This document shows, in pieces, positions 316-24,813 of a DNA stretch of 38,588 nt. Within the stretch, counting starts at the first letter, position 1. The number at the start of each line of letters is the position of its first letter. The DNA is taken from assembly GCA_020831765.1 (NCBI GenBank), contig JAFIFY010000117.1, positions 1-38,588 of the forward strand. Direction: 5' to 3'. The notes beneath the pieces were generated by a model, which was not told the origin of the DNA, made no database searches, and was given only the letters and a program-made list of their open reading frames with translations. A program made the position numbers and the translations under genes. The DNA comes from Phycisphaeraceae bacterium. Its GTDB lineage: Bacteria; Planctomycetota; Phycisphaerae; Phycisphaerales; Phycisphaeraceae.

Positions 316-1653
316 TCAAGCCTCCGGTTCGAGCTCTTCCTCATACCCGGGGATCGCCGGCATCTGGTCATCATCGCCGCCATGGTCCTCGGGGGTCTCC
401 GGAGCCCGCGGCGCTTCTGGAGCTTCCGGGGTTGCCGGGGGTTCCGAGGATTCCGGGGGTTCGGGGGATTCGGCATCGCGTGGCGGTACGGGCTGTATGC
501 CGGGCCGGTCGGGTTGTCCGGGCTGGACGGGGATCACCTGCCGGATATCGGGCTGGACGGGTTGGGCCGCGGCGTCGGCGCCTTCGGCCAACGTCACTTC
601 CACGGTCAGTTCCTCATCGCCGCGCCGAATCACAAGCTGAATCTTCTGTTCGGCGATGAAGCGGTTGGTCAACTGGCGCATGTGCATCATGTCCAGGATG
701 CGAATGCCATCGACCACCAGAATGCGATCGCCGGTCTGGAGTCCGGCCTCGGCCGCCGGCGAGTCGTCCTGCACGTTGGCGATCTCCACGCCGCGCTGCC
801 CTTGCTGGCGAAGATTCACGCCGATCCGGCCCCGGCGGATCGTCTCACCTTGCTTCATTCGATCGATGATCGGACCAAGGTCCGAGAGCGGCACGACAAA
901 GCCGATGCCCGAGTCGTACCATTCCACACCGGCCATCGCGCCCCGGGCCGTCGGCGACACGGGTACGTTGATCCCGATGACCCGACCGAAGATGTCGATC
1001 AGCGGCCCGCCGTAGTTGGCCGGGCTGATGTTGGCATCGGTCTGAACCAGACGACCGCCGATTCGATCCATCGCGCTGATGATCCCGGAAGAGACCGCGT
1101 TCTGGCCGCCCCCATATCCGACGCCCAGCGATATCGCCCACTGCCCGACGCGCAGGTCATCACGCGACGCCGGTCGCGCCGGGGTCAGCTCGCGGGCCGT
1201 GTTGATCTTCAACAGGCAGATGCGGCGGGTTTCATCGCGACCGAGCAGCTCGGCGACATACTGCGAATCGTCCTCCAGAATCACCGTGATCAGCGACGGT
1301 TCCTGAAGAAAGTTATACGTGCTCGTGATGATGTAGCCATCTTCGGAGATGATCACACCGGTCGTCGGGCCCTCGCCCGGCCGACTGATGCCGCCCGATG
1401 GCGCTTGACGCCGGCCCGGTTGCCTCGGGCCATCGGGCGTTCGCACCACGCCACCGAAAGTTTCAATGGTGACCACGCTCGGGGCGACCTGCGCCGCGGC
1501 GTGGCGGAACACCGCCGGGGCCAGTCGATAACCGGCCTGCACTTGCTCGAGGCGCTGTAGCGCCTCATCATCAGCGCCGGCCACGCCGTTGAACATGAGC
1601 GTCAGCGCGAGAATCGGAACAGCGCCGAGGATGGAAAGCTTGCCGGATCGCAT
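316..1653 (-). CDS. HtrA-like pseudoprotease with PDZ domain (all three triad residues lost)
   Basis: A 445-residue exported protein with the S1C/HtrA layout: signal peptide (residues 1-27, ending VAGA), trypsin-like domain (about 45-265), one PDZ domain (about 275-357, GRIGVN to VTLAE) and a Pro/Glu-rich acidic tail (about 365-445). The fold markers survive (GVIISEDGYIIT, LGVGYGGG, YGGPLIDIFGRVIGIN), but the catalytic positions do not. The His of the TNxHV motif is Tyr113 (GYIITSTYNF), the Asp before the ALLKI strand is Arg144 (RRICLLKI), and the Ser of GNSGG is Tyr214 (PANYGGPL). It should therefore be inactive as a protease. The PDZ and protease folds could still bind peptides or regulate the active paralog. 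A GTG at 1656 would also work. ATG at 1653 gives a TGATG junction with the upstream gene and a better distance from AAGGA. Confidence 0.9.
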   Translation of the reverse strand: MRSGKLSILGAVPILALTLMFNGVAGADDEALQRLEQVQAGYRLAPAVFRHAAAQVAPSVVTIETFGGVVRTPDGPRQPGRRQAPSGGISRPGEGPTTGVIISEDGYIITSTYNFLQEPSLITVILEDDSQYVAELLGRDETRRICLLKINTARELTPARPASRDDLRVGQWAISLGVGYGGGQNAVSSGIISAMDRIGGRLVQTDANISPANYGGPLIDIFGRVIGINVPVSPTARGAMAGVEWYDSGIGFVVPLSDLGPIIDRMKQGETIRRGRIGVNLRQQGQRGVEIANVQDDSPAAEAGLQTGDRILVVDGIRILDMMHMRQLTNRFIAEQKIQLVIRRGDEELTVEVTLAEGADAAAQPVQPDIRQVIPVQPGQPDRPGIQPVPPRDAESPEPPESSEPPATPEAPEAPRAPETPEDHGGDDDQMPAIPGYEEELEPEA

Positions 1654-2912
1654 CACTGCTCTTCCTTTTCAACCGGGTTGGGTGTGATTCGCACGACGGC
1701 GAGGGCATCGTGATCGCCTTCCCGCCGCTTGATGACGAAGATCGCTTCGCGTTCAGGATTGAGCCTCGAGACGATGCGGTCATAGTCCCGGATGGTGTAG
1801 ACCTGTTCGCCGTTGATCGAAAGGATCATGTCGTCGCGTCGAAGGCCCGCACGCCGCGCCGGGCCGGTTCGGGTGATGCGATCCACGTAAGCCGCCGCGC
1901 GCGGCCCCGGCAGACGGAAAAGCTCAAAGCCAAAGTCCAGCTCCCGCGTCGCCTGCGCTTCGGCGGCCAGCGCCTCCTCATCGAGTTCGCCATCGAGGAA
2001 CTGCCGGATCACATCATTGGGGATGGCGTAATTGATCCGCGTGTTGGTGCTGGCGCTTTCAAGCATCTTGCCGACCACCCCGGCCAGCCGTCCATCCACG
2101 GTCACCAGCGCGCCGCCGGGAGCGCCGGGGTTGCTGGTGATCGCATCGATGAGGTAGATATCCGTGAGAATCTCCATGTCGGCGGCGCGGCGTTTGGTGT
2201 CCACCCGGGCCCGCATCGAAAGCACACCCAGGTTCACCGACATGGGCTCATCACCGTCGGCCACCTTGAACGGATTACCCACCGCCAGAACCCAGTCGCC
2301 CTGATCGACGATCGGCCGGGAGAGCACCGGAAAATAATCCGGCGTCTGGGCATCGATCTTCAGCAGCACGATCTGAGCCGCCTCGCTCTGGCGCTCGACC
2401 TGGGCCATGTGAACCTGGCCGTTGGGCAGCACCACCCGGATGCGGTCACCGGTCACATACAGGCCATGGGCCGTCAGGATCCGCCCGTCGGCCGAAATGA
2501 TCGTGCCCGTGGCGTAGCCGTGCTCAAGCGCGATGCCGGCACCGTAAATCTTGACCGTCCGCTCCTGGGCCATGCGGATGGCCTGATCGAAGATGTTGGC
2601 CCGTTGGGGTGGCGGCGCATCGGTTCCTTCCACGCGCTTGGGCTCGGACACGGTCGAAGTCGCATCGCCCCCTTCCCGCACGGCCTCGCCGGCTTCTTCG
2701 GCTTCCTTGGCTTCCGACTCCGTCACCGCCGCGGGCGCTTCATCGTCTCGCGCCTCCTCAGCGGGCTCCACCTCCGTGGAGACCGTCTCACTTTCGGCGG
2801 GTGCCTGGGCATCGGACGATTGCGCGTGGATCGGGAAAGCGATCAACGACAGCGCCGCCATAGCCGGCAGCCACCATCGCCCAATCGTTCGTGCCATCTG
2901 AACGCTCTTCAT
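1653..2912 (-). CDS. HtrA-like pseudoprotease with PDZ domain (Ser and Asp lost)
   Basis: A 419-residue exported protein and the second of three tandem trypsin-like paralogs. The signal peptide covers residues 1-30 (MKSVQMARTI to AFPIHA). An acidic, Ala/Glu-rich low-complexity linker follows (about 31-100), then a degenerate trypsin-like domain (about 105-305) and a C-terminal PDZ domain (about 325-410; RAGLRRDDMILSINGEQV). A histidine survives at 149 (RILTAHG), one position off the usual motif. The serine loop reads NPGAPGGAL, with Pro265 where Ser should be, and the Asp position is Gln180 (AAQIVLLKI). Peptidase activity is unlikely. The ATG at 2912 was chosen because it starts at the signal peptide, 7 bp after the upstream stop; a longer in-frame reading would overlap the active protease gene. 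Confidence 0.88.
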   Translation of the reverse strand: MKSVQMARTIGRWWLPAMAALSLIAFPIHAQSSDAQAPAESETVSTEVEPAEEARDDEAPAAVTESEAKEAEEAGEAVREGGDATSTVSEPKRVEGTDAPPPQRANIFDQAIRMAQERTVKIYGAGIALEHGYATGTIISADGRILTAHGLYVTGDRIRVVLPNGQVHMAQVERQSEAAQIVLLKIDAQTPDYFPVLSRPIVDQGDWVLAVGNPFKVADGDEPMSVNLGVLSMRARVDTKRRAADMEILTDIYLIDAITSNPGAPGGALVTVDGRLAGVVGKMLESASTNTRINYAIPNDVIRQFLDGELDEEALAAEAQATRELDFGFELFRLPGPRAAAYVDRITRTGPARRAGLRRDDMILSINGEQVYTIRDYDRIVSRLNPEREAIFVIKRREGDHDALAVVRITPNPVEKEEQ

Positions 2913-2919
2913 CGCCTGT

Positions 2920-4836
2920 TCACTCCTGCTCCACCGATTCGACTTCTTCTTCAGCGGCTTGCGTGTCATCTTCTTCGGCCTGTTCGGCGGGCTCGGGTTC
3001 CGGTTCGGCGGCGGGGGCGGGGGCCGGGCGGGGCTCGGACCAATGCTCGAACTCGGCCACATCGCCGAGGAGTCGAACGGACCTTCCCTCAAAGGTCAGC
3101 AGTAACGATTCATCGTCGCCTCGCACGAACCGGCGTTGGAACGGGATGCGGACATCCTCCACCTGCCGGTAATCGCCCAGCACCATGGCCACGCCCAAGG
3201 GCTCGCCTTGTTCGTTGGCGCGCGAAACCTTGATCAGGCGCGGCTCCAGCCTCGTGTTGCTTCGATCCATCACACTGATCCAGATCATCCAGTGCTCATC
3301 GTGCCGGTCGGTCAGGTGGATTCGGAACGCGCGCTCACCGGCGGCTCGATCACCGCCGAGCAACCGCACGCGCCTCCAGTGGCGGCGGTCGCTGCGCAGG
3401 ATGATCGATGCCGCCTCGGCGACCGGCTCGCCCAGCGTCGAGAGCGATCGGACGGTTCGGTCGGGCATGTCCTCGAAGACCTGGCCGAAACGCTCGCCGG
3501 CGCGCCGCACCGCCAGCCGGTGCGTGCCAACTTCGCGATCGCCGTCAATCACGGCCGTGACAATCTCAAGCCCCGCGTAATCGTTGAGTTCGCCTCGCCA
3601 GCGAACCCACTGGTCGAAGATTCTCGCTCCCTCGCGGTCGGCGATTCGGGTATCGCGAATCTCGCCGGGCGTTGTCGTTGGCGGCGCGGTGGGTGAACGC
3701 GGGTTGCCCGGTCGTCGGTCCGCCCCGGGATTGCCGCCCGAAGTCGGGGCGAAGGGCAACGGGGTCAGCCTGACCACCGCGTGCATTCGCTCGCCGCCCC
3801 GCTCCCAGACCACATTCACCGGCCAGTTCGCCGGGAAGATCGTGATCACGCTCGCGAACTGATTGGCCGATCGGATCCGCCTTCCTTCAAAGCTCACCAG
3901 GCGGTCGCCCGGCCGCATGCCCGCCCGGGCGATCGGCGAATCGAGATTGATCGACTGGCAGACCACCACGCCCGGCTCGCGCTGCGCGAACACGGCGTCG
4001 AGCGTCCCGTGCATCGTCGTTCTGGAGGCCAGCAGATCGGGAATGAAATTCTTGACCTGTTCAGCGCTGATCGCGTAACCCAGGCCAACATTGACCCGGC
4101 CCCGCTCCTCGAAGGAACCGCGGCCATTGATGCCGATGATCCGGCCGTCCATGTTGAACAGCGGCCCGCCGGAGTTGCCCGGGTTGATCGAGGTATCGAA
4201 CTGGATGCAGTCGCCGTAGACCAGCATCTGGCGCGTCGGGCCGGTTCCGGGCTGGAAGCGATTGACGCCGCTGATGATGCCCATCGTCACCGTGGGCTTG
4301 AGGTCTTCGGTCAGCGAGAACGGGTTGCCCATCGCCAGGGCCCAGTCACCGACCCGGACATCATCCGAATCGCCGAACTCGGCGTAAGGAAACGGCTCCC
4401 GACCATCGAGCTTGATGATCGCCACATCCCCGCCCGGATCGATGCCGACCAGGTTCCATCGGTAAAGCTCGCCATCGGCCAGCCCGGCCCACCCGCTGGT
4501 GCCCGCCGCGGCCACGACGTGGTAGTTGGTGACCGCGTAGCCATCAGGATCGATCAGCACGCCCGAGCCGCCACCGCCTCGCTGATTGCCGTAGATCGCC
4601 ACCACCGTGGGCGCGACCTTTTCCACCACGCGGACGCGCGCCTGCTCGGCTTCCATCACCGCGCGGACCGCCGCGGGCAAAGGCTTACCATCCTCATTGG
4701 CGATCGCGACGCCCGAAGGCGACAGGAACAGCAGAACCAGCAGCGCGGCCAACCATCGGCGGACCAGCGCGCAAGGCACCGGGGCCGATGGGATCGAGCG
4801 GGAATTATCCGGCGATAGGGAAAGCCTCGACGGCAT
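2920..4836 (-). CDS. HtrA/DegP-type serine protease with PDZ and long C-terminal extension (active triad)
   Basis: A 638-residue exported S1C-family serine protease. After an N-terminal signal or anchor (hydrophobic about 28-46, LAALLVLLFLSPSGVA), the protease domain spans about 60-265. It has His106 (AVTNYHVV), Asp137 (GGDVAIIKL) and Ser222 (INPGNSGGPL), so the triad is complete. One PDZ domain follows (about 278-358; ARAGMRPGDRLVSFEG). A Pro-rich linker leads to an extra domain of about 200 residues (400-600), then a strongly acidic tail (600-638). The extra domain has alternating beta strands and the string LGDYRQVEDVRIPFQRRF, which recalls the LolA/outer-membrane lipoprotein-sorting fold; I am not sure of that. 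GGAG lies 6 nt before the ATG and overlaps the upstream stop. It is the only catalytically complete member of the trio and probably acts in periplasmic quality control. Confidence 0.92.
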   Translation of the reverse strand: MPSRLSLSPDNSRSIPSAPVPCALVRRWLAALLVLLFLSPSGVAIANEDGKPLPAAVRAVMEAEQARVRVVEKVAPTVVAIYGNQRGGGGSGVLIDPDGYAVTNYHVVAAAGTSGWAGLADGELYRWNLVGIDPGGDVAIIKLDGREPFPYAEFGDSDDVRVGDWALAMGNPFSLTEDLKPTVTMGIISGVNRFQPGTGPTRQMLVYGDCIQFDTSINPGNSGGPLFNMDGRIIGINGRGSFEERGRVNVGLGYAISAEQVKNFIPDLLASRTTMHGTLDAVFAQREPGVVVCQSINLDSPIARAGMRPGDRLVSFEGRRIRSANQFASVITIFPANWPVNVVWERGGERMHAVVRLTPLPFAPTSGGNPGADRRPGNPRSPTAPPTTTPGEIRDTRIADREGARIFDQWVRWRGELNDYAGLEIVTAVIDGDREVGTHRLAVRRAGERFGQVFEDMPDRTVRSLSTLGEPVAEAASIILRSDRRHWRRVRLLGGDRAAGERAFRIHLTDRHDEHWMIWISVMDRSNTRLEPRLIKVSRANEQGEPLGVAMVLGDYRQVEDVRIPFQRRFVRGDDESLLLTFEGRSVRLLGDVAEFEHWSEPRPAPAPAAEPEPEPAEQAEEDDTQAAEEEVESVEQE

Positions 4837-4839
4837 GGG

Positions 4840-6114
4840 TTACTCCGGCATGGGTTTGAGCAATCGCGCATCGGCCCAGTTGGCGATGTCCGAAAGCGAG
4901 AGGTCCTCGCCGTACTCGACAACAAGCGTCAGGCGCTGGACACCGGCGATCGGCACGGTGACCGGTCGGGGTGGGTCGATGCCCCGCACTCGTTGGCGCA
5001 GGACTTCCCGGCCATCGGCGAGAACAACGAACTCGCAATCGCCGGCGCCTCGCGTCAGGGCATCGATGCCCATGGTCACCGCGAAGGTCTCGTAGCGGCC
5101 TCCGATCTCGAAGGTCAGGCGGCAGTAGGAACGAACCCCCAGTCCCTTCTCGAACGTCCGCTCGCCAATGACCAGATCACCGCCATGCACGTTGCGATCG
5201 CGTTGCCATGGCCGAGCAATATCCAGCAGCGGATCCTCGACCACCTCGACGGGATTCAGGTCGGAAAGAAAAACCATCCGATCACTGCGCACATCGATGC
5301 GCCAGACCGCCGTCCACGGTACACGCGCCACCTGGTCTTCACCCGGCCCAAGCTCAAGCACCGCGCGATTGCCGTCGCGGGTGACCCGAACGGCGGGAAT
5401 GGACGAACCATCCACCAGATGCGCGGTCCAGACATTCGTCGGCAAAGCATCCGGTGTGGCCAGCCGGACACCGATCACCCGTTCCCGGCCGATCGATCGG
5501 CTTTCGCCCCGGAAATTGAAGCCCACATTCTCATCACCGATGCCCTCGAGCACACCCGTCACCGGAAGCACCCGGGCCGGGCGATCGTCGGTGGCGGGCT
5601 GGACCGCGAAAAGCCGGTCCTCACGAACGTCGCCGGCACGCAACGATGCATCAAAGAGCTCGGTCGAAAGCCCATCGGGCGCTTCGCTCAGGCTGACCGC
5701 CTTGATCGACTCGAGATTGAAGCTCATCCGGCCGTAACGTGTCTGAGCGTTGAGCAGACCTTCGGCGACGGTCACGTTCGATGCGCCCAGTTTTCCTCCT
5801 GAGGCGAAATGCACCCAGTGTTCGACGGATCGAGTCGAGGGGGAAGCATCGGTGCGAACGGCCCGCCGAATGGTCAGCGGATCGCGATCCGAGTCCTCAC
5901 CGGCGAGTCGCACCGCACTCTCGCCCCAAGTCCGGATCGAACCTTCAACGGTCGTTCCATCCAGAAGCGTGATGCGCCACGCATCCCCTTCCGAGGCCGA
6001 CGCTTGAAGTGGAGACAACCCGGCCAGCAGGGTGATCAGCAAGGCCGGCACAACAACGCCCAACGCCAGCGTCGAACGAAGCAGGTGATCGCATTTCAAC
6101 ACAACATCCCGCAT
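4840..6114 (-). CDS. Secreted NPCBM-domain protein
   Basis: A 424-residue protein with an N-terminal hydrophobic export segment (about 15-40; LALGVVVPALLITLLAGLSPLQASA). Its C-terminal 125 residues match the NPCBM (novel putative carbohydrate-binding module) pattern: GLGVRSYCRLTFEIGGRY, then FVVLADGREVLRQRVRG, VPIAGVQRLTLVVEYG and a closing ANWADARL. The middle (about 45-290) is beta-rich and has repeated SH3-like strings of the LDGTTVEGSI / LVDGSSIPAVRV type. NPCBM domains are often attached to secreted glycosidases, but no catalytic domain is visible here, so a binding or scaffold role is inferred. The TAA stop sits inside the Shine-Dalgarno region of the downstream htrA gene, 3 bp from its ATG, which indicates co-expression. 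Confidence 0.82.
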   Translation of the reverse strand: MRDVVLKCDHLLRSTLALGVVVPALLITLLAGLSPLQASASEGDAWRITLLDGTTVEGSIRTWGESAVRLAGEDSDRDPLTIRRAVRTDASPSTRSVEHWVHFASGGKLGASNVTVAEGLLNAQTRYGRMSFNLESIKAVSLSEAPDGLSTELFDASLRAGDVREDRLFAVQPATDDRPARVLPVTGVLEGIGDENVGFNFRGESRSIGRERVIGVRLATPDALPTNVWTAHLVDGSSIPAVRVTRDGNRAVLELGPGEDQVARVPWTAVWRIDVRSDRMVFLSDLNPVEVVEDPLLDIARPWQRDRNVHGGDLVIGERTFEKGLGVRSYCRLTFEIGGRYETFAVTMGIDALTRGAGDCEFVVLADGREVLRQRVRGIDPPRPVTVPIAGVQRLTLVVEYGEDLSLSDIANWADARLLKPMPE

Positions 6115-6165: not shown

Positions 6166-7440
6166 TCAATCCTCGTCGTAAGCCTCGCCGGATTGCTCCG
6201 GCCGCGCCAGATCGCTCTGGCGAATGCTGTCGTAGTACTGCTCGACCAGCTCGCGATACCGATCCGGAAAGTTCTGCCGCAGGGCGGACATGACGCGCTC
6301 GCGTTCATATTCAGGAAGCCCGCCCCAGGGCTGGGCCTGCGTGCGCCGCTCTTCCTGTCGGCCCATGCCACCCTGGCCGATCACTTCACTGGATTGGGCA
6401 GCGCCGTCACCTGCCGCATCCCCGCCGGCGGCACCCTGGCCTTGCCCCTGCCCCTGACCTTGCCCCTGTCCCTGGCCCTGGCCCTGGCCCTGCCCCTGCT
6501 GCTCCTGCTCTTCGGCTTCCTCGATCAGCCGATCGAGCATTTCGATGATGCGGCGGTGCTCGGTCTGGGTCGGGTCGCCCGAATCGCCCAAGTCCAGCTT
6601 GCGGCGGGCGAACGACATCCTGTTCTGCACATCGTAAAGACTACCTTCGTATTCGAGCATGATGCGAAGGTCGTAGATCATCTGCCTGGCGCCTTCGAGC
6701 ATGCGCTCCGAGGCGTCCGGGAACGATTGCGTGAACGATCGAAGCATCGCCAGGGCTTCAGCGCGCCGCAGCGTCTGCGACTGGCTGACCGCAAGCAGGA
6801 AGACGATATCCGGGGCGAAGAGCGTCTGATCCAGGCCTTCTTCCATGAGCGGGGCCAGCAGGTCATAGGCATCCTCGAATCGTTCCTGGCCGACAAGAAG
6901 CTGTGCCCGATAGAAGCGGGCATGGGCCGCCACGGATGGAATCTTGTGGTCCACCAGCCGGGCAAACCCGGCCAGAGCGCGGTCGGCCCGCTCATCGATC
7001 ATGTCATCGATCGCTTCGCCCAGGACCGGATAGAGGTCGGCCAGCGCAAAGGCCACTTCATCGGGATCGGGCGAAGGACGCTGAGCTTCGGACCGCAACG
7101 CCTGGATCGCACGGTCGCGCTCCTGGCGATTGACATCACCGTCGGTGCCAAGCTGGGCAATGATCTTCTCGATCACTTCCGCGGGCGGCTTGGCCTGAAT
7201 CTCAATCAGCGGCAATTCCTCGCGCGGCGCCGGTGGCTGGGCATCGGCCTCGCCGGGCACGGGAATCGGCACGGCCTCCATGGGCGGCAAGGGCGCTGCG
7301 GCATCTTCCTCCGCCGGAACGGCTTCGGCGGCGGGCGCGATGGGCGTCGCTTGTTCGTCGGCCACGGCGGCGGGGTTGCTGATAAGAAGTCCCAGGCTCA
7401 GCAGGGCCGGGATCGCGAGAATGTGTCGTTGCTTGAGCAT
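6166..7440 (-). CDS. Exported helical-repeat protein with Gly-Gln tract
   Basis: A 424-residue protein of unknown function. The signal peptide covers residues 1-28 (LAIPALLSLGLLISNPAAVA) and is followed by a Pro/Ala/Glu-rich linker (30-80). The central part (about 85-310) is helical and reads like degenerate TPR-type repeats (ALAGFARLVD, AHARFYRAQLLVGQERFEDAYDLL). A run of alternating Gln-Gly then spans about 315-336. The C-terminal segment NFPDRYRELVEQYYDSIR is amphipathic and typical of planctomycete proteins that sit beside VWA/MoxR clusters. The start is well supported: AAGGAG lies 7 nt before the ATG. The gene sits 58 bp downstream of the coiled-coil gene and 51 bp upstream of the NPCBM gene. 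It may act as an adaptor in the same envelope complex (inference). Confidence 0.8.
   Translation of the reverse strand: MLKQRHILAIPALLSLGLLISNPAAVADEQATPIAPAAEAVPAEEDAAAPLPPMEAVPIPVPGEADAQPPAPREELPLIEIQAKPPAEVIEKIIAQLGTDGDVNRQERDRAIQALRSEAQRPSPDPDEVAFALADLYPVLGEAIDDMIDERADRALAGFARLVDHKIPSVAAHARFYRAQLLVGQERFEDAYDLLAPLMEEGLDQTLFAPDIVFLLAVSQSQTLRRAEALAMLRSFTQSFPDASERMLEGARQMIYDLRIMLEYEGSLYDVQNRMSFARRKLDLGDSGDPTQTEHRRIIEMLDRLIEEAEEQEQQGQGQGQGQGQGQGQGQGQGQGAAGGDAAGDGAAQSSEVIGQGGMGRQEERRTQAQPWGGLPEYERERVMSALRQNFPDRYRELVEQYYDSIRQSDLARPEQSGEAYDED
6433..6504 (-). repeat. Short-unit repeat coding for a Gln-Gly tract
   Basis: Alternating CAG/CAA and GGC/GGG codons give about eleven Gln-Gly pairs. The plus strand shows cccctg, gccctg and acctt units. 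It encodes a flexible linker between the helical region and the C-terminal segment of the protein at 6166-7440, and may vary in length between strains. Confidence 0.8.
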
Positions 7441-7498: not shown

Positions 7499-9787
7499 TT
7501 AGTTTCGTTCAATCAATTCATAGGCCATATCGGCGACCTGACGCTGCAATTGGGCCAGATTGCGGGCGAAAGTCATGTCCGTTTCGCCCAATTCGGCCGG
7601 TCGCGTGCGGTCGAAGACCTCGGTGCGGTTGTTCACGCGAAGTTGTGCGGCTTTGAGCAGTTTCAGTTCCGCCGAATCCGGCACCAGGGGCGGATTCTGC
7701 TGTTCGCCGGAGTCGTCGCCCTCGCCCTCGCCGCCTTCGCCTCCCTCATCATCCTGCATTTCCTGAGCCTGCTCGAGCGCTTCGATCAGCTCCCGCAGCG
7801 TGGCCTCGATTTCCTTCTGCATGGTGACGGTCAACTCGCCGGCATCCTCGGCGGCCATGCGGTCGGCGACCTGCATCATGTCATCCCGTAGCTGGGCGAC
7901 GATTCGCGGGAAGACCACCGTCGTGCCATCCTCGATGATGATGTCCAGGGCACGCTGCGCCATGGCGCTGAGCGCGCGTTGATCGCTGGAGCGATTACGA
8001 ATCAGCAGTTGCTGAGCGCGCTGCCATTGCGAACGTTCGACCCTTCCGATCAACTCGGTGTCCCGCGTGATCGGCTCCTGCAGGGCCAGCATCTGTCGGA
8101 AGCGGGCCTCGAGCGCGGCCAGCAGTTCATCCTGCATCTCTTCGCGAAGCTGAGCCAGACGACGCTCGATCTCCTCAAGCGCGCGCTCCAGGTCACGACG
8201 CGCCTGTTCCTGTTGCCTTGCCGCATCCCGGGGGTTATCACCTCGCAGGTCTTCAGCGGCCTGCTGCATTCGTTGCTGGGCCTGGCGAACATCCTGAGAT
8301 GGTCCGGCATCCTGTGGCTGCTGTTCGCCACCGGGCTGACCTTCACCGCCGGGCTGGCCTTCGCCGCCGGGCTGACCTTCGCCACCGGGCTGGCCTTCCG
8401 CCTGGGCCATGCGATCCGCAAGATCACCGGCCTCGGATGCGACCTGATCCTGCTCACCGGCGACCTGTTCCGGCGGTAGGCTCGCGATGCGATCGTGCTC
8501 GCGTCGCAGCTCTTCCAAAGCCCGCTCCAGTTCGGCGATCGCCCGCTCACCTTCGCGTTGGGCGGTCTGCGGACGGCCTCGCGACAGTTCATTTTCGGTA
8601 TTGCGCTGAGCGTCCACCGCTCGCTGCATGGCTTCCTGGCCCGGCTGAGGCGCCTGAGGCCGCTGCTCGGCCTGCTGTTCACCGCCGGGCTGGCCTTCAC
8701 CACCAGCTTGCGCCTCGCCACCGGGCTGACCTTCACCACCCGCCTGTGCCTCACCGCCCGCCTGTGCCTCACCGCCCGGCTGGCCTTCGCCACCAGCCTG
8801 CGCCTCACCGCCCGGTTGACCTTCGCCGCCAGCTTGCGCCTCGCCGCCGGGCTGACCTTCACCACCAGCCTGCGCCTCGCCGCCCGGTTGACCTTCGCCA
8901 CCAGCTTGTGCCTCGCCGCCCGGTTGACCTTCGCCACCAGCTTGCGCCTCACCGCCGGGTTGACCTTCGCCACCCGCCTGAGCCTCACTTCCCGGCTGAC
9001 CCTCGCCACCAGGCTGTGCATCGCCAGGCTGCGCATCGCCAGGCTGTGCATCGCCAGGCTGCGGCTGACCGGCTGATGGGTCGCCCAGTTCGCGTCGAAT
9101 CGCATCGGCAAGCCGCTCCGTGTCCCGCCTAAGGCCATGCTGCTCATCGGCGATCCGACCCAACGCCCGCAGGCCTCGATTCTGATTCGACTGGACCGTC
9201 TCCACCAGGTCACGCTGTTCCTGGATAATCGATTCCAACTCCGCGATGCGTTCAGCCAGGCGACGCATCACCTCTTCCCGTTCGGAAAGTTTTTCGCTTT
9301 CATTCTGCAACCGATCCGTTTCGCGGATCAGCCTGTCCAGGTCCTTGCGGAACTCCTCAAGCCGCCTGATCTCCTCGATCTGGCTGTCCAGAAGATCCTC
9401 TTCCTGCAGGATGGCGATGATCTCCTGAAGCTTGGCGATCACCTCGCCCTGAAGTTCATCCGCGGCGCCGAAGTCGCGACGATCCACCAGCGTGGCAATG
9501 GCTTCCATCATCCGGGCCAGGCCCAGTTCGCGCGATCGGTCATAAGCACCACGGAGCCGATCGGCCTGATCCGGATCGTTGCGCTCGATCGAATCGGCCA
9601 GCTCGGCCATCTTGGCTTCAAGCTCGGCCAGCGACTGGCTCAGCCGCTCCTGTCGAACCTTGACCCCCGCCGGTGTCGCTGAACCCGATGCACCATCCTG
9701 AGCCGTCGCCGGCCGCGCCGGCAGCCAGGCTCCGAAAGCCATCACGGAAAGGATCAGCACCATGATTGTGAGATGGGATGGTTTCAT
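7499..9787 (-). CDS. Exported coiled-coil protein with long Gly/Gln/Glu repeat region
   Basis: A 762-residue protein of unknown function. The signal peptide covers residues 1-30 (TIMVLILSVMAFGAWL to PATA). A long charged coiled coil spans about 40-225 (for example RRLEEFRKDLDRLIRETDRLQ). It is followed by a low-complexity block of about 125 residues built on the 12-residue unit AGGEGQPGGEAQ. A second coiled coil, a short repeat of GGEGQP units (about 460-490) and a C-terminal helical domain (about 500-762) complete it, with a Glu/Gly/Asp-rich patch near 700. ATG at 9787 was chosen over an in-frame TTG 15 bp upstream because GAGG sits 8 nt before it. The helical plus disordered-linker build suggests a tether or scaffold in the periplasm (inference). 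Confidence 0.82.
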   Translation of the reverse strand: MKPSHLTIMVLILSVMAFGAWLPARPATAQDGASGSATPAGVKVRQERLSQSLAELEAKMAELADSIERNDPDQADRLRGAYDRSRELGLARMMEAIATLVDRRDFGAADELQGEVIAKLQEIIAILQEEDLLDSQIEEIRRLEEFRKDLDRLIRETDRLQNESEKLSEREEVMRRLAERIAELESIIQEQRDLVETVQSNQNRGLRALGRIADEQHGLRRDTERLADAIRRELGDPSAGQPQPGDAQPGDAQPGDAQPGGEGQPGSEAQAGGEGQPGGEAQAGGEGQPGGEAQAGGEGQPGGEAQAGGEGQPGGEAQAGGEGQPGGEAQAGGEGQPGGEAQAGGEAQAGGEGQPGGEAQAGGEGQPGGEQQAEQRPQAPQPGQEAMQRAVDAQRNTENELSRGRPQTAQREGERAIAELERALEELRREHDRIASLPPEQVAGEQDQVASEAGDLADRMAQAEGQPGGEGQPGGEGQPGGEGQPGGEQQPQDAGPSQDVRQAQQRMQQAAEDLRGDNPRDAARQQEQARRDLERALEEIERRLAQLREEMQDELLAALEARFRQMLALQEPITRDTELIGRVERSQWQRAQQLLIRNRSSDQRALSAMAQRALDIIIEDGTTVVFPRIVAQLRDDMMQVADRMAAEDAGELTVTMQKEIEATLRELIEALEQAQEMQDDEGGEGGEGEGDDSGEQQNPPLVPDSAELKLLKAAQLRVNNRTEVFDRTRPAELGETDMTFARNLAQLQRQVADMAYELIERN
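8680..9064 (-). repeat. In-frame 36-bp tandem repeat region of the coiled-coil gene
   Basis: About ten imperfect copies of a 36-bp unit code for AGGEGQPGGEAQ. They are preceded by 15-bp units coding for QPGDA near 9008-9064. Third positions vary between copies (GCC/GCT and GGT/GGC alternate), so the array is diverged rather than freshly expanded. A second, shorter array of 18-bp units coding for GGEGQP lies at 8321-8398 in the same gene. Confidence 0.85.
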
Positions 9788-10084
9788 GTCTTGTTTCCTC
9801 AATCAGACCGTTCGGTCAAGGAGAACCGTGAGAAACGCCAACGCACGATACGGCCCCTTAGGAGACGTCGGCGAAGGGGTTACCCGGTCATAACCCGCGA
9901 TTCTCAACGATAAACCACTGAACATTATCCATTTATGCATGCCATAAGAGCGGGAAGGCGATCGGCGGCTCCCCAGGCCCCCGGCCCCCGGGCCCACCCA
10001 CCGTCCGCGAAGGTGACCGACGCCCCGCTTTGGACGCTCCAGCCGATCCGACGGTTCGCCCAAATGGTCCGATTCGACTCACCA
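9788..10084 (-). promoter_or_regulatory. 297-bp leader of the coiled-coil gene with overlapping inverted repeats
   Basis: This is the largest gap inside the minus-strand gene train, and no convincing gene lies in it. Three inverted repeats sit close to the coiled-coil gene: CCCCTT (9854-9859) with AAGGGG (9874-9879); GGGTTA (9877-9882) with TAACCC (9891-9896); and GACCG/CGGTC around a 2-nt loop (9806-9817). The first two share bases 9877-9879 and so cannot form together. The part near 9970-9995 is a C-rich stretch without an obvious stem followed by a T run, so I do not call a terminator. Confidence 0.35.
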
Positions 10085-12397
10085 TCAATCGAATATCTCG
10101 CGCGTCTCGCGTTCAACCGCTTCCTGAAGCTGGCGACGAATACGGACCTGATCTTCGGACAGCGCCCGGAGTTGGTTGACCAACTCCTGGTAGCCCTCCC
10201 AACGCTCCATGTACGTCAACACCTCTCGAAGCTGATCGATGATCTGACGCTGCATGTCGTTGGTCTGAGCGACCAGATCGATCCGCTCCTCCTTTTCGCG
10301 CCCGGCCTGTCCGGCCTGTTCCAGCAGGTTGGCCGCCGCGGGCGTCGAATTGATCGCCATCGCGCGCAGGGGAAGGATGATCCGATCATTCATTCTCCTT
10401 CGCACCCGACCGCCATCATCATCCATCTTGTTGTTCTCGTGCTCCTGCATGATCGCGCTGAACTGCTCGGCGACCGAGCGAAGCTGATTGCCCGCAAGGC
10501 GCTGGGCCCGCTCGGCCTGAATGATGACGGCGCGGTCATCCTCGCTGAAGCTCTCCCGACGCGCCACATCGGCCAGCATCGCTTCCAGGTCGGTGACCAT
10601 CTCCTGATGGGTACGCAGAACACGTTCGGTCTCTCGACGTTGCTCCTGCTCGCGGCGCAAGAGCTCCTGGGCCAGCACATCACGGGAGACCACGCGAAGG
10701 AAAAACGGCGTCGATTCCCCTTCATTGGGACCGCCGATGTCATCGTTGTCCAGGGCCACGATCATGAACTGAATCGACTGGCCCACTTCCAGATCGAGCG
10801 GGATCAGTTCCAGTCGATGGGCGACCGGCCCGACCTGATCCTGTCCGAGCCATTCATCGAACGCGCGGGCCGGCATCCGAATCTCCCGGGGCCCGCCGGC
10901 CGTTTGCGGCCCGCCAGGCTCTTCGTCACCGGCCTGATCATCGGGATCATCCCGCTGATCGCCATCCCGCTGCCGACGCAACTCCTCAAGCCGGGCGCGT
11001 TCAATCTCCAGGGACCGATCCGCGGCGCCGCCGCGAATCTCCGCCTTCAGCGCAACCTCCATGACCGCGAAATCATCCTCGATCGTCGTCAGCATCGGGA
11101 TCGTCGCCTCGGGCACGACCATGGAACTGATGCCAATCAACTGGGTGTTGATCCGCGGTCGATCATCACGACGGATGGTGAGGTTCATGCGATCGGCGCG
11201 GCGGGTGCGCAGGCCATCCTCAGCCACAAGATGGAATTCGAAAACGCCGTTGTCGACTTGCTCCGCGGGCACCTTGCCGCGGACAGCCATGTTCGGCACG
11301 CCTTCATGCTCGACCACTTCCAGCGTCGCCACATCCCGGCCCATGTGCCGGACCGTCGCCGAACGGATCGGTTTGTTGACCACCCCTTCCACCAGGACGC
11401 TCGAACCCCGGTAGACGAACTCGGCGTTCTGGTTCGGTGGCAGCTTCCTGGGCTCACGCCGGGTGCGCGGCGGAGAATTGCGGACATAGTCCGGCGGCAC
11501 GATCGTCAGCGAAAGCTCCTCGTAGGCCGGGCGCTCGCTGAGCGTGACGCTCTGCCACTCGATGACATCATCACCGCCGCGCACACGGAACCGAAACGGC
11601 TCGCGAATGTTCTGGAATGTGACGCTGAAGGTGTCATCGCCCAGTTGCCGCATGACCTCGGTCACGCGTCCGGTGCCGCTGTCGGGCCGGAAGTCGATGT
11701 GGACCATCGAGGGCACCACTCCCTCCGCGCGAACCAGTTGCGTCCAGTTGTCGCCTCGGGGAACCACGCCGGTGAAATCAACCAGGTGAAGATTGGTCTC
11801 CTTCGGCCACTCGGCGCCGCCAAGAAGCACCATGCGATTGAACCATATCCGGAAACTGTCGGGCGAATACAGGCCGGCGACGGCGATGCCCATGGCCAGC
11901 GCCAGCGCGGCCATCGCGCCTTGCAGCAGGTAGCGCCGACGCGAGGCGACATCGACAATGTCATTGAACCGCGTCACCTGGGCATTCTTCAGGCCCAGAT
12001 CGATCGTGGCCGCGACCATGCTCTCGGAGACACCCAGTGCCTGGGCATTCTTCAACCGGACGAACTCGACCGCACTGAGCAGGCTTTCGCCGGTTTCCGG
12101 ATGCCTGCGTTCAACCCGGGCCAGAAGATCCTCATCCCCGAGCCGGCGACTGGCCGGGACCAGCAGAAATCGCCACAGCAGCCACAGCAGCCCGGCGAGC
12201 CCCATGAGCAGCAGGATGCCGCGCTGAGCCCGATCGAAGCGCATCATGTAATCCAGCACACCGGTCGCGACGATGAACACGCCCAGGCTGATCATCAGCT
12301 TGGCCCAGAGTCGGGCGAGAATCCAGCCCCGGATGGCCCGCCGAAGCGATGCCAGACGACCGGTGACCGGGGCAAGTGAAGCGATTTGAGCGGACAT
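10085..12397 (-). CDS. DUF4175-like membrane protein with large extracytoplasmic domain
   Basis: A 770-residue protein. Two transmembrane helices lie near residues 35-55 and 62-85 (LISLGVFIVATGVL; ILLLMGLAGLLWLLW), and a third lies at about 140-160 (LLQGAMAALALAMGIAVAGLY). A large beta-rich region follows (about 170-450) and then a helical, coiled-coil-prone region to the C-terminus (about 470-770). The segment WPKETNLHLVDFTG, with the later LTIVPPDYVRNSPP and LVAEDGLRTRR, matches the general pattern of DUF4175-type proteins found beside MoxR/VWA genes. The molecular function of that family is not established. The start was chosen at 12397 because AAGGAA lies 6 nt upstream; ATG at 12403 would leave no spacing. 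It sits between the second VWA gene (58 bp upstream) and the coiled-coil gene. Confidence 0.75.
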   Translation of the reverse strand: MSAQIASLAPVTGRLASLRRAIRGWILARLWAKLMISLGVFIVATGVLDYMMRFDRAQRGILLLMGLAGLLWLLWRFLLVPASRRLGDEDLLARVERRHPETGESLLSAVEFVRLKNAQALGVSESMVAATIDLGLKNAQVTRFNDIVDVASRRRYLLQGAMAALALAMGIAVAGLYSPDSFRIWFNRMVLLGGAEWPKETNLHLVDFTGVVPRGDNWTQLVRAEGVVPSMVHIDFRPDSGTGRVTEVMRQLGDDTFSVTFQNIREPFRFRVRGGDDVIEWQSVTLSERPAYEELSLTIVPPDYVRNSPPRTRREPRKLPPNQNAEFVYRGSSVLVEGVVNKPIRSATVRHMGRDVATLEVVEHEGVPNMAVRGKVPAEQVDNGVFEFHLVAEDGLRTRRADRMNLTIRRDDRPRINTQLIGISSMVVPEATIPMLTTIEDDFAVMEVALKAEIRGGAADRSLEIERARLEELRRQRDGDQRDDPDDQAGDEEPGGPQTAGGPREIRMPARAFDEWLGQDQVGPVAHRLELIPLDLEVGQSIQFMIVALDNDDIGGPNEGESTPFFLRVVSRDVLAQELLRREQEQRRETERVLRTHQEMVTDLEAMLADVARRESFSEDDRAVIIQAERAQRLAGNQLRSVAEQFSAIMQEHENNKMDDDGGRVRRRMNDRIILPLRAMAINSTPAAANLLEQAGQAGREKEERIDLVAQTNDMQRQIIDQLREVLTYMERWEGYQELVNQLRALSEDQVRIRRQLQEAVERETREIFD

Positions 12398-12455
12398 ATC
12401 CATTTCCTTGCGTGCAAGCCGGCCGCGAAGCACCCGGGCCTCGCCCGGCCGGCGA

Positions 12456-15194
12456 TTACATCAGCTTGTATCCCTTGCGAAACGCCCATTCGAGCGTGAG
12501 CAACGTGCCCAGGAGGGCCAGCGTGAACCACGAATCCCAGAGGCGCTGCGGAGCCCGCGGAATGGTGATCGATACCGTCGGTGCCGTGATCATCCGGGCA
12601 AGCTCGACCGCCTCACCGGGCATCAGCGCCATGCCGTTGGTCCGTTCGGCAAGATCGCGCCAGAGGGCCATGTCCAGCGTCGGCTCCTCGAACTCGATGC
12701 GCGGCACCTCGACGGTGAATCCCCGTGTCTGGCGAACCGCGCGGTCGGTGGTCGGCAGGTCCACGGCGAATTCATAGTCGCCCGGCTCACCGGCGATGAT
12801 CACCGCCTCATAGACCGTCGGCCGCTCCATCTGGCCGTCGGCCACCGGTCGGTCCTGCCGGCCATCCCGTTGCATCTCCATGTCGATTCGCGAAGGCGGA
12901 AGCACCGTGCCATCCCGGCGCGTCACGACATACGTGGCCGGCAGCGAATCGGGCAGGCTCATCGTCCTGGCCTGCTCAGGCGAGATCGAGAGGCGAACGC
13001 GGATGCGATCGCCGATCTTGTACTCATCCCGATCCATCAGAATCTGGGCCCGGCGTTGATCGCCGACCAGCTTGCCTTCAGTCAGGAAGCGAACCATCTG
13101 GGTCCAGTACCGGTCGAAATATTCATGGTTCTCGCCGACGCGCCGCCAACGCCATGAACTGTTGAACCCCATGTACATCGTTCGACCGGAGCCGAACTGC
13201 GCCGAAGCCAGAAGCACGCCGGGATTGCCGTCCACGCCCCGGAACTCGGCCGATGGGTGTTCCATGAGCACGATCGAGCCCGGCATCGCCTGACGCGCGG
13301 CCAGGGACCAGTAGATGCCCGGCAGAATTCGCCAGATGGACCGGTTGTCCTCGGCGTTGCCCGCCATGCGCGTGACGATGTGGTCATCGGCATCGGCCGT
13401 GAGACGGATCGGATACTGGGTATTGAAGCGGCGGCCGAGGTTGGCCGCTTCCCGGCTGGGCGCATCGCTGAGGTCGACGGGGAGAACGTCGAGGATGCCG
13501 TTGGAATCGGGAAACGCCGAGGAGAGAAAACGTCCGGTGAACTTGGGCCCGGCCACATACAGCAGACCGCCGCCCTCACGCACGAAGGTTTCCAACGCCT
13601 CGTTCCACTGTTCGGTGAACTGCCGCGGATCAAGCGTCGGCGCCGGGTCGGGATCGAACATGATGATCACGTCATACTCGGACAAACCTTCGCCCACCAT
13701 CGATTCGCCGCTGATCGGATCGCGATAGGCGAAATCCCGGTAAGCCTGGGGCAGCGTGTTGATCGGCGTGTTGCCGTCCTGGCGCATCTGGGGGTCCTGC
13801 GACTGGAGCCAGCAGGAAAGGTTGATCGATGGATCGCGCTCGAACAGGCCGCGAACCGTCCGATACTCCCATGTCGGCGAGCCGGCGATGATCAGGACAC
13901 GAGCCTTCTGGCTGAGGACCTCCACCGTCCGTGAATCCATGTCGTTCTGGGGAAACTGATCCGGCGGGCCGTCCAGCGTCTCGATGCGGACCGAATAGAC
14001 ATACCTGCGGCTTTCGCCGTCCCGGCCTTCGTCGTCTTCCAGCTCCAGCGGCGGCGCCGAAAACTCGACATTTCGCCGAAAAGCCGTGCGTGACATGTCC
14101 TCGCTGACCGGAATCTGGATGTCCTGGGAGTCGATATGCACGGGGTTGGTCTGGCCCAGCTCGGTCTTTTCCAGGTTGACGCGAACCCGCTGCCCGTCCA
14201 TGCCGACGGCTTCCATCACGGCGCGAATCTGGAAGGGATCGCCGCCCCAGACCTTCTCGGGTGCCGCCATGGCCGCGATCCGGGCATCGGGCAATCGACG
14301 CGTATCGCCGATGGCGACCGTGTGGATCGGAATTCGCATCTGCTCGGCAAGATCAGCCACATCGCGGGGATCATCGCCTTCGTTGTTGCGGAAGTCTCCG
14401 ATGATCACGATCGCGGCGATCGGATCGCCCCGGACCGAAGCGATGGCCTCGCGGATCGCGGCGGCCTTGTTCGTACTGGTGCCCGAGGCATCGAAGGTCA
14501 ACGGGGTTGACGGCACGACGCCGGACGGGGCGGGTGATTCCTGATCGGCCACCGGCGTCAGAGGATCGTCGGTTTCAGCCTCGTCATCGCCGGTGACGGC
14601 CGGACGGGAGAACCGGAGGCGGGCGGTATCGGCGAATTCAAAGACCTTGTAGTTGCCCAGTCGTGAAAGGTCGCGAAGCAGTTCCTGATCGTTTCGGTTC
14701 AAGAGCCACTGGGCCACTTCGATTCGACTTGGCTGAAGCTGTCGCAGATCGGCGACCTCGATCACTTCGTCCCGGCCGTGGGACAAAAGCGCCGCGGTCT
14801 CCCCGGCAAGGCGTTCATCCTGGTAAGCATCCTGAACGGTCATGGACAGGGTGTTGTCCACCAGCACGATGACCCAGGGTTTCTTCACCTGCGTGACATT
14901 GACGGCCAGCGTCGGCCCCAACAGGACCAGGAAGATCGCGATCAGCGTCAGGGTCCGGATCGTGGCCAGGCCGATCTTGATCTTCGGCGGGCAGACCTTC
15001 ATCTCGCGCCGATAGAGCCAGAACGTGCCCATGATCAGGCCGATGAATACGAACAGGACAACAAAGAGCACCCACGATCCGACGGCCGAATCCCAGACCA
15101 GCGTGGCCTGGGCATCATCGGTCATCACCGAGGAATCGATTCCGAACATCTTGTAAAACAGGTCTTGCAAAGCAGTGGCTCCGTTGTCGTTCAT
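12456..15194 (-). CDS. VWA-domain membrane protein with glutamine-amidotransferase-like domain
   Basis: A 912-residue protein. Two N-terminal transmembrane helices lie at about 39-60 and 75-97, and one lies at the extreme C-terminus (about 890-906; LALLGTLLTLEWAF). A von Willebrand A domain begins at WVIVLVDNTLSM. Its MIDAS motif is Asp113-x-Thr115-x-Ser117, with Thr in place of the first Ser, and AAIVIIGDFRNNEGDD follows near 280. The middle has beta-sandwich strands. At about 500-660 there is a class I glutamine-amidotransferase-like Rossmann fold (EYDVIIMFDP, then FVREGGGLLYVAGP) without a convincing catalytic Cys. The same build (TM, VWA, sandwich, GATase-like, TM) occurs in the BatA-like gene at 20008-22299, so the two are probably ancient paralogs. 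It is likely a client or partner of the MoxR ATPase encoded upstream. Confidence 0.85.
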   Translation of the reverse strand: MNDNGATALQDLFYKMFGIDSSVMTDDAQATLVWDSAVGSWVLFVVLFVFIGLIMGTFWLYRREMKVCPPKIKIGLATIRTLTLIAIFLVLLGPTLAVNVTQVKKPWVIVLVDNTLSMTVQDAYQDERLAGETAALLSHGRDEVIEVADLRQLQPSRIEVAQWLLNRNDQELLRDLSRLGNYKVFEFADTARLRFSRPAVTGDDEAETDDPLTPVADQESPAPSGVVPSTPLTFDASGTSTNKAAAIREAIASVRGDPIAAIVIIGDFRNNEGDDPRDVADLAEQMRIPIHTVAIGDTRRLPDARIAAMAAPEKVWGGDPFQIRAVMEAVGMDGQRVRVNLEKTELGQTNPVHIDSQDIQIPVSEDMSRTAFRRNVEFSAPPLELEDDEGRDGESRRYVYSVRIETLDGPPDQFPQNDMDSRTVEVLSQKARVLIIAGSPTWEYRTVRGLFERDPSINLSCWLQSQDPQMRQDGNTPINTLPQAYRDFAYRDPISGESMVGEGLSEYDVIIMFDPDPAPTLDPRQFTEQWNEALETFVREGGGLLYVAGPKFTGRFLSSAFPDSNGILDVLPVDLSDAPSREAANLGRRFNTQYPIRLTADADDHIVTRMAGNAEDNRSIWRILPGIYWSLAARQAMPGSIVLMEHPSAEFRGVDGNPGVLLASAQFGSGRTMYMGFNSSWRWRRVGENHEYFDRYWTQMVRFLTEGKLVGDQRRAQILMDRDEYKIGDRIRVRLSISPEQARTMSLPDSLPATYVVTRRDGTVLPPSRIDMEMQRDGRQDRPVADGQMERPTVYEAVIIAGEPGDYEFAVDLPTTDRAVRQTRGFTVEVPRIEFEEPTLDMALWRDLAERTNGMALMPGEAVELARMITAPTVSITIPRAPQRLWDSWFTLALLGTLLTLEWAFRKGYKLM

Positions 15195-22299: not shown

Positions 22300-22436
22300 G
22301 TCCAATCCTCAGTAAAGTCCATCACAACGCTGAACGACCGTCGGGGGCCGGAACCCCAGGTCCGGAAGCCGTTTAACGCCCGGCGGCGCGCACCTGGCCG
22401 ACTCGGCTGGCTTGGGCCCTCGGCCGTTCGCTCAAC

Positions 22437-23369: not shown

Positions 23370-23427
23370 GAACCGGCCTCGATGGGAAGGAGCGGCGGAA
23401 AAACAACTGGCCGTGCCGGGCAATGCC

Positions 23428-24489
<1,062 letters not shown>

Positions 24490-24813
24490 GAATGCCTCCA
24501 AAGATCAGATTTGCAAAGGGTTACCGGGAATTCCTGACCATGTCCAAACACAGGACCGGCCGTGTGGCCGCCGCGCTGCGGCAACAAAACCACCAAAGCG
24601 ACGGGCGAGCCGCTTCAGCCTAGAGACGCATGGACTTGGGGGGGTCTGTCAAAAGTTGGGCAAACCCGAGTTCGCGCTGCGACAGGCCGCTGATGGAACG
24701 CCCTTAGCCAGACCCCGCCACCGGGCTACCTTCGGCCCACGCCATCCGAATCGTCGTAACCCATCCACAAAGCCCAACCTGCCTGTTAGGCATCCTCGCC
24801 CGGGGTTGCTAAA
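24490..24813. promoter_or_regulatory. Divergent intergenic region between moxR and the ATP synthase cluster
   Basis: These 324 bp hold no convincing gene and should carry the promoters for both transcription units. On the minus strand a TTGACA lies at 24652-24647, but I see no good -10 at 16-18 nt from it. On the plus strand TAAAAT at 24810-24815 could be a -10 for the atp cluster, again without a good -35. GC-rich inverted repeats lie at about 24559-24582 (CGGCC-GTGT-GGCCG, then CCGC-GCT-GCGG). Confidence 0.4.

Follow-up and report, generated by a model that had tools for sequence, protein, structure and literature searches.

We analyzed a 38,588-nucleotide (nt) contig of a Phycisphaeraceae bacterium (JAFIFY010000117.1, assembly GCA_020831765.1), the whole of which is called the window below. 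Three HtrA-type genes, here named A, B, and C, close a tightly packed run of genes on the minus strand of the window and are transcribed in the order A, B, C. These genes are as follows.

Gene A, positions 2920-4836, minus strand, 638 amino acids (aa): HtrA protease of the active type, with a Trypsin_2 domain, one PDZ domain, and a C-terminal region.
Gene B, positions 1653-2912, minus strand, ATG start, 419 aa: predicted pseudoprotease of HtrA build with a PDZ domain, having Gly, Gln, and Pro at the triad sites.
Gene C, positions 316-1656, minus strand, GTG start, 446 aa: predicted pseudoprotease of HtrA build with a PDZ domain, having Tyr, Arg, and Tyr at the triad sites and the motif SPANYGGPL.

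The gap between A and B is 7 bases, B and C overlap by 4 bases, and A is preceded, after a gap of 3 bases, by a gene for an NPCBM/NEW2-domain protein. An alternative longer frame of B starts with TTG at position 3092, that is, within A.

The three products matched the Trypsin_2 model of Pfam with 115.6 (A), 55.0 (B), and 87.8 bits (C), the cut-off being 27.6, and all three also matched PDZ models; the PDZ_2 score of A was 31.4 bits, above the cut-off of 27. An earlier description of this DNA made from its letters (the sequence-only reading) had claimed three adjacent, near-overlapping genes of trypsin-like plus PDZ build, and the Pfam scores and coordinates confirmed this claim. Profile-profile comparison by hhalign indicated that A, B, and C are homologous along their length (99.7-99.9%).

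Then the codons at the triad sites were read directly. Those of A were His106 (4519-4521), Asp137 (4426-4428), and Ser222 (4171-4173), in agreement with the residues given for the first gene by the sequence-only reading. The codons of C at the same sites encode Tyr (1315-1317), Arg (1222-1224), and Tyr (1012-1014), again as had been claimed. In the hhalign alignment of A and B, the His site is displaced by a single gap of one column; we used instead the ungapped match, in which the T of T-N-[YF]-H in A is set against the T of T-x-x-G in B. By this match the codons of B encode Gly (2463-2465), Gln (2373-2375), and Pro (2118-2120). Thus the replacement of Asp by Gln and of Ser by Pro in the second gene stood. 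The displaced His that this gene was said to keep is present at 2466-2468, but it is not a conserved residue, since only two of eight close sequences, including that of the window, have it. B and C are, by this comparison, predicted pseudoproteases of HtrA build, homologous to A over the protease and PDZ domains, whose triads have been lost.

A belongs with the HtrA/DegP serine proteases by its triad and its C-terminal PDZ domain. Its score against the NCBIfam model of the Do family (TIGR02037) was 206 bits, below the cut-off of 416.2, and under the rule of this model A is assigned as HtrA-like, outside the Do subfamily. The best relatives by profile in the Protein Data Bank (PDB) were a DegP-like entry (7xs0) for A and B and DegQ (4a8a) for C. 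A differs from DegP and DegQ in the Do-family score and in having a single PDZ domain followed by a C-terminal region without a family match. DegP and DegQ are homo-oligomers of active subunits. The region of A after the PDZ domain (2923-3738, about 270 aa) is poorly conserved; it measures at least 184 aa in the unfused A orthologs listed, and only about 130 aa in two genomes (G005 and G038). A Pfam search with this region gave nothing significant (best E-value 0.0021, in one of ten members), and a search of the PDB gave no match up to an E-value of 1. The structure predictions of C and B, made from three-row alignments, were too poor to use (mean predicted local distance difference test score 54.4 and 45.1, respectively).

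The state of the triad sites was then tallied among orthologs by alignment; for A, 96 sequences were aligned and two were read directly. His, Asp, and Ser were each present in 98 of the 98 A orthologs. Among the 97 B orthologs, the Ser site was occupied by Ala in 44, Pro in 22, Gln in 13, Gly in 6, Tyr in 6, Phe in 3, and Asp, Thr, and Glu in 1 each, and by Ser in none. At the His site of B we found Ser (65), Gly (13), Asn (9), Gln (3), His (2), Thr (2), and Ala (1), with 2 unread, and at its Asp site Gln (29), Asp (27), Gly (20), Lys (7), Glu (7), Arg (2), and Ser, Ala, and Leu (1 each), with 2 unread. At the Ser site, 96 of the 98 C orthologs had Tyr and the other 2 had Phe. Their His site held Phe (78), Tyr (10), Trp (6), or Ile, Val, Glu, and Leu (1 each), never His, and their Asp site held Met (23), Arg (22), Gly (19), Lys (15), Asn (7), Gln (6), or Ala (6), never Asp. 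That is, an aromatic residue occupies the nucleophile site of C in all 98 orthologs, which indicates a selected shape rather than drift. In the alignments of close relatives, the triad of A was present in 8/8; the His site of B read T-[AS]-x-G-[ILV]-Y, its Asp site was Gln in 8/8, and its Ser site read NPG[AS][PA]GGA; and C had TST[YF]NF and SPANYGGPL in 6/6. In one family (f51; loci L109, L110, L126, L145, and others) the C frames are about 655-700 aa long, and many of them have a second PDZ-like stretch behind the first.

These tallies bear on one explanation of the lost triads, gene decay or a sequence error in a recent duplicate, to which stop codons in C of one genome (G286) and near the start of the B match of another (G650) might also be ascribed. 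Intact-triad orthologs of B or C, named beforehand as refuting evidence, were looked for, and Ser was found in 0/97 B and 0/98 C orthologs. The profiles used to pick the orthologs came from dead copies of B and C; an intact copy, differing at 3 of about 310 positions, is expected to be still detectable with them, although this was not separately tested.

The ratio of nonsynonymous to synonymous substitution (dN/dS) was calculated by the Nei-Gojobori method in nine genomes of one genus, which belongs to another family than that of the window. The values are medians of the 4-6 of 36 pairs that lay below the limit for synonymous differences, and the end of the protease domain of B was fixed at alignment column 200, since the motif marking this end was not found. 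In the protease domain by itself, dN/dS was 0.0105 in A (4 pairs), 0.022 in B (5 pairs), and 0.0135 in C (6 pairs); for the PDZ domain alone (5 pairs each) it was 0.004, 0.052, and 0.061, respectively; and for the two domains together it was 0.009 (4 pairs), 0.032 (5 pairs), and 0.030 (5 pairs). The values were higher in the closest pair, G495/G515 (A 0.053, B 0.092, and C 0.033). Comparing the two domains within B and within C, the constraint was stronger on the dead protease domain than on the PDZ domain of the same protein. The sequence-only reading had also named a dN/dS near 1 across the dead domains as refuting evidence, and for the dead protease domains it came to about 0.02 in B and 0.01 in C. 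Purifying selection on both of these domains is strong. On the evidence of the orthologs and of dN/dS we reject recent decay and sequence error, and we give this explanation a negligible chance. Selection on a non-catalytic role, as had been argued from the window, is strongly supported by the Ser-less orthologs together with the low dN/dS.

The sequence-only reading had further described the triad as eroding step by step along the operon. We rejected such a series, because A, B, and C form three separate old clades in the trees. Each of the three was monophyletic, with a FastTree support of 1.0 and an ultrafast bootstrap (UFBoot) value of 100 in IQ-TREE for each, in a 188-tip tree from which six of the nine g347 genomes and all domains of 230 residues or fewer were excluded, and in an IQ-TREE run on 24 of 49 complete trios. 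A, B, and C formed one group together with a further HtrA of the same genome as the window (L007), supported by 0.895 in FastTree and by a UFBoot of 99. A sister grouping of B and C had a support of 0.595 in FastTree and was absent from the IQ-TREE consensus. The locus L007 (G000:C52) contains a second adjacent HtrA-like pair, at 1171-2319 and 2319-3410. By eye, the protein of 1171-2319 retains His and Ser (TAGHVS, GGDSGGP); that of 2319-3410 has a PDZ-like stretch within the protease domain, KASEL in place of the His motif, a retained Asp, and QMGGP, that is, Met for Ser.

The distribution of the trio was examined in samples of increasing breadth. With B as the query, clear orthologs were found in 7 of the 150 other genomes of the same order (44-62% identity), the remaining matches listed being at 34% or less. 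NPCBM, A, B, and C occurred together in five of these seven relatives; C lies on a separate contig in G020, and G145 is limited by a contig of 3.2 kb. In the class sample the C profile matched 78 of 397 genomes at an E-value of 2.2e-75 or lower, the next match being at 9e-64, and 30 of these 78 strong matches were fetched and read. The phylum is probably Planctomycetota, as judged from the DUF1559 family, whose expansion is a mark of that phylum: this family has 122 and 57 members in two relatives, 15 in the genome of the window (best E-value 8e-9), 3-4 in three others, and none in G568 and G664, and it occurred in 0 of 14 controls. Among 392 genomes of the phylum sample, A was detected in 71 (1e-70), B in 65 (1e-40), and C in 65 (1e-66). 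All three were present in 64 genomes, A and B in one, A and C in one, A alone in five, and none in 321. These counts may be low because only five candidates per genome were scored. The overlap of B and C expected by chance in 392 genomes is 10.8, and the hypergeometric p value, in which shared ancestry is ignored, is about 1e-71. The two near-misses explain themselves: the genome with A and B (G704) has a C below the cut-off, and in the genome with A and C (G629) both genes are close to contig ends, each toward the side on which B would be expected. A search of contigs with B alone gave one record, a metagenome-assembled genome of Desulfobacteraceae with a match of 54 residues. Judged from this distribution, the trio is an ancient, phylum-wide module of one predicted active and two predicted pseudoprotease HtrA proteins, a larger finding than first noted.

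We next consider what ties the three proteins to one another. Ten of the 96 genomes having both A and B (G020, G042, G148, G416, G484, G491, G664, G682, G779, and G794), from 7 families, encode the two in a single open frame; among the seven same-order relatives, three do so. Of 86 unfused frames, 64 have a strongly hydrophobic segment (mean of at least 2.0 over 14 residues) ahead of B, and none of the 10 fused linkers has one; with a less strict cut-off the counts were 77/86 and 1/10. This segment is what is expected of the signal peptide of B, and its loss from the fusions speaks for their being real and for B and A sharing one side of the membrane. The proteins of the trio mostly have hydrophobic N-termini of the export type. 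The genes were also kept where they have been dispersed. A, B, and C occupy three separate places in G532 and G549, and in G733 about 390 kb separate C from A and B; in all three genomes B and C are dead. In G764 and G780, C is on a different contig from A and B. In the genus of G532 and G549 (g376), B stands among different neighbor genes, away from A and C (L112 13564-15051 and L113 13872-14990). The fusions lacking the hydrophobic segment of B, together with the co-retention after dispersal, speak for A and B, at the least, being physical partners.

We therefore regard it as rather probable that B and C serve A as dedicated pseudoprotease partners, fixed long ago, and that the three act together in the envelope as part of a MoxR/VWA-type operon. 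The conservation, the lost triads, the co-occurrence, the fusions, and the constraint are observations, from which we infer the contact, the stoichiometry, the sign of regulation, and the substrates.

There is a different way to read the retention of B and C: they may be non-catalytic peptide-binding or chaperone modules for the VWA/TPR machine of the operon that never assemble with A, their co-retention reflecting a shared pathway. The PDZ domains are retained, and the trio is stably linked to the NPCBM, TPR, VWA, and BatA genes (see below). In addition, the VWA family of the operon is common, being found in 135 of 151 genomes of the order, and its seven best copies are all in trio genomes. 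The ranking continues with G142, a 66% complete genome with no detected B, and the eighth trio genome, G145, whose trio contig is only 3.2 kb long, stands lower (532 bits). The ten A-B fusions, however, link B with A rather than with the other genes, and G532 and G549 keep all three genes although they are dispersed. We consider the separate-module explanation unlikely, though it is to be taken seriously.

Several observations weigh against the partnership of B and C with A. Asp is retained at the Asp site of B in 27 of 97 orthologs. An aromatic residue of the GNPF segment, which we take to belong to the trimer core of HtrA, is present in A (60/60) and B (63/63) but in only 42 of 60 C sequences, and the N-terminal aromatic pair of HTRA1 and HTRA2 is not evident in A of the window. 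No B-C fusion was found among the orthologs checked and no A-C fusion was seen, so that the argument for including C comes from co-occurrence and synteny, and the calculated co-occurrence leaves shared ancestry aside. Five genomes have a match to the A profile without B or C, four of them weak (241-255 bits) and one, G454, at 294 bits. Stop codons were noted in ten checked matches. Eight of these lie within the last few residues of the match; the stop in C of G286 is between the protease and PDZ domains, that in B of G650 is near the start of the match, and each may be real or a sequence error.

How dedicated partners might work can be considered as follows. HtrA proteases are textbook quality-control enzymes of the envelope, homo-oligomers that switch themselves on. 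A, B, and C would instead assemble with one another in the envelope, most simply as a mixed HtrA trimer or otherwise as a higher oligomer, with one active site per set. The protease-fold domains of B and C would supply the neighbor contacts needed by an HtrA active site, and their PDZ domains would capture the substrate or sense a signal while A cuts. The cutting by A would then depend on the partners and not on self-assembly, and the aromatic residue at the nucleophile site of C may lock this protomer in a fixed state.

A precedent is offered by HTRA1, which cannot be active without multimeric assembly and in whose mixed trimers a dead protomer can rescue an assembly-defective one (PMC11252331). 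The likeness is that a dead protomer restores the assembly and activity of another (PMC11252331). The difference is that those mixed trimers are engineered in the laboratory, whereas the set proposed here to act in this manner is natural, spans the phylum, and consists of three separate genes. Contact among A, B, and C can plausibly be drawn from the sequence evidence and the precedents.

Assembly of this kind could also have the opposite effect. That is, B and C may join A and inhibit or buffer it, being dominant-negative until a signal removes them. Such a role shares the genomic evidence of the partnership described above, the aromatic residue at the nucleophile site of C fits a locked protomer, and dominant-negative inactive peptidase domains have been proposed in other MoxR-vWA systems (PMC7159879). 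However, a dead D174R-S328A protomer of HTRA1 left the wild-type HTRA1 unhindered in mixed trimers (PMC11252331), and the present data do not indicate the sign of regulation. We think that inhibition is improbable.

The partnership of B and C with A can also be put in a stronger form: an obligate hetero-oligomeric HtrA of one active and two dead subunits in a fixed ratio, in which A would be unable to work alone, under the control of a MoxR/VWA envelope machine, and kept through much of the radiation of the phylum. It would be an HtrA with dead paralogs as permanent members of the ring, on the plan of the proteasome or ClpP/ClpR. We offer this form tentatively, as a real possibility that we would not yet expect to hold. 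A set occurring phylum-wide with two permanently dead partners, one of them bearing an aromatic residue at its nucleophile site in every ortholog examined, would be a natural system for testing what the non-catalytic neighbors of an HtrA active site do.

The pairing of active and inactive HtrA proteins has been described for MamE and MamO of magnetotactic bacteria. The triad of MamO is dispensable, MamO is required for MamE-dependent processing, and the authors infer selection for the pairing of an active with an inactive copy (PMC4794232). Like the trio, this pair combines an active with a dead HtrA; the two belong to one gene island, and for the processing by MamE the presence of MamO, not its triad, is needed (PMC4794232). 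In contrast to the trio, which has two dead partners, MamE has one, and in MamO the Ser is replaced by Thr and a di-His motif binds metal (PMC4794232). Metal binding like that of MamO was rejected for B and C, in which no His occurs in columns conserved at 95% or more (63 rows for B and 60 for C). The scores against the MamO model were 48.8 (A), 25.3 (B), and 36.7 bits (C) with a cut-off of 800, which does not place any of the three in that family. Active/inactive HtrA pairing is already known from MamE and MamO, and we therefore grade the trio as a variation on this known pairing.

As for the planctomycetes, they are described as having many PDZ proteins, and the word "inactive" is absent from the main text of that paper (PMC6411480). 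For Rhodopirellula, the consulted part of PMC2754498 gives one cold-induced htrA gene and no trio. We recognized no description of the trio in the open-licence literature of PMC, as covered by titles and the openings of abstracts, a scope outside which most subscription papers and preprints lie.

Finally, we examined the surroundings of the trio in 46 loci chosen from profile matches, of which 43 have A and 42 have all three genes. The genes upstream of A in the window are listed below with the number of the 43 loci in which each was recognized.

4840-6114, minus strand: NPCBM/NEW2-domain protein directly upstream of A (Pfam PF08305, 105.5 bits); 37/43.
6166-7440, minus strand: TPR-type protein with a weak YbgF-like region (TPR matches in two orthologs, one above the cut-off; weak YbgF match); 32/43.
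7499-9802, minus strand: low-complexity operon protein, family unassigned (DUF4175 match below the cut-off in one ortholog); 37/43.
10085-12433, minus strand: operon protein without a Pfam match; 28/43.
12456-15194, minus strand: VWA-type protein (VWA above the cut-off in one of four scanned orthologs and below it in two); 29/43.
15234-19979, minus strand: PQQ/TPR protein, a large gene inserted in the operon here (Pfam PQQ_2, 60.2 bits); 0/43.
20008-22305, minus strand: protein with a BatA N-terminal domain (Pfam PF07584, 55.4 bits) and a weak VWA match; 22/43, many loci ending short of the gene.
22437-23423, minus strand: DUF58 protein (Pfam PF01882, 153.5 bits); 10/43 on the strand of the trio, most loci ending short of the gene.
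23428-24501, minus strand: MoxR AAA+ ATPase (Pfam PF07726, 217.6 bits); 3/43 on the strand of the trio, most loci ending short of the gene.

For the VWA-type protein of the window itself (12456-15194), the Pfam scan gave no VWA match. The trio stands beside recognized genes of a shared BatA/VWA/TPR/NPCBM operon in 41 of the 43 loci, the other two (G572 and G320) having no recognized neighbor. The recognized genes on the strand of the trio follow the order of the window in 42 of 43 loci; G465 instead has MoxR and DUF58 beside A. NPCBM was not recognized in G664, G472, G719, and G564, and MoxR is on the opposite strand in G689.

TPR proteins occur in Bat operons. The present operon also resembles the Bat/MoxR operons in that MoxR and Bat genes stand in one cluster, as in the aerotolerance genes of Bacteroides (PMC3557215). 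It differs in the HtrA trio, which does not appear in the consulted part of that paper. MoxR has been postulated to load metal into the metal ion-dependent adhesion site (MIDAS) of Bat proteins, the function of which was termed elusive (PMC3557215). The trio gives the MoxR/Bat-type operons, whose function is unsettled, a concrete set of partners.

The MoxR and VWA neighbors, taken with dead trypsin-like domains, also recall the MoxR-vWA biological-conflict systems (PMC7159879), and the locus could be one of these with an inactive trypsin as the effector. Such systems have variable effectors and a third component, which may be VMAP, iSTAND, FtsH, or a beta-propeller; a protein of the PQQ-propeller type is present in the operon of the window, though it was recognized in none of the 43 loci of the relatives. 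The MoxR of the operon, however, scored 217.6 bits against the general AAA_3 model and 47.2 bits against the model of the beta-propeller systems. In addition, the trio is not hypervariable but constant throughout the phylum, with strong purifying selection acting on it, and its proteins mostly have the export-type N-termini noted above. We consider a conflict system very improbable here, although no search aimed at VMAP, iSTAND, or FtsH was made.

Two further features of the operon were observed in the window. The PQQ/TPR gene at 15234-19979 interrupts an otherwise conserved operon. The protein of 7499-9802 contains a long low-complexity stretch, which is built of repeated units of the type GGEGQPGGEAQA.

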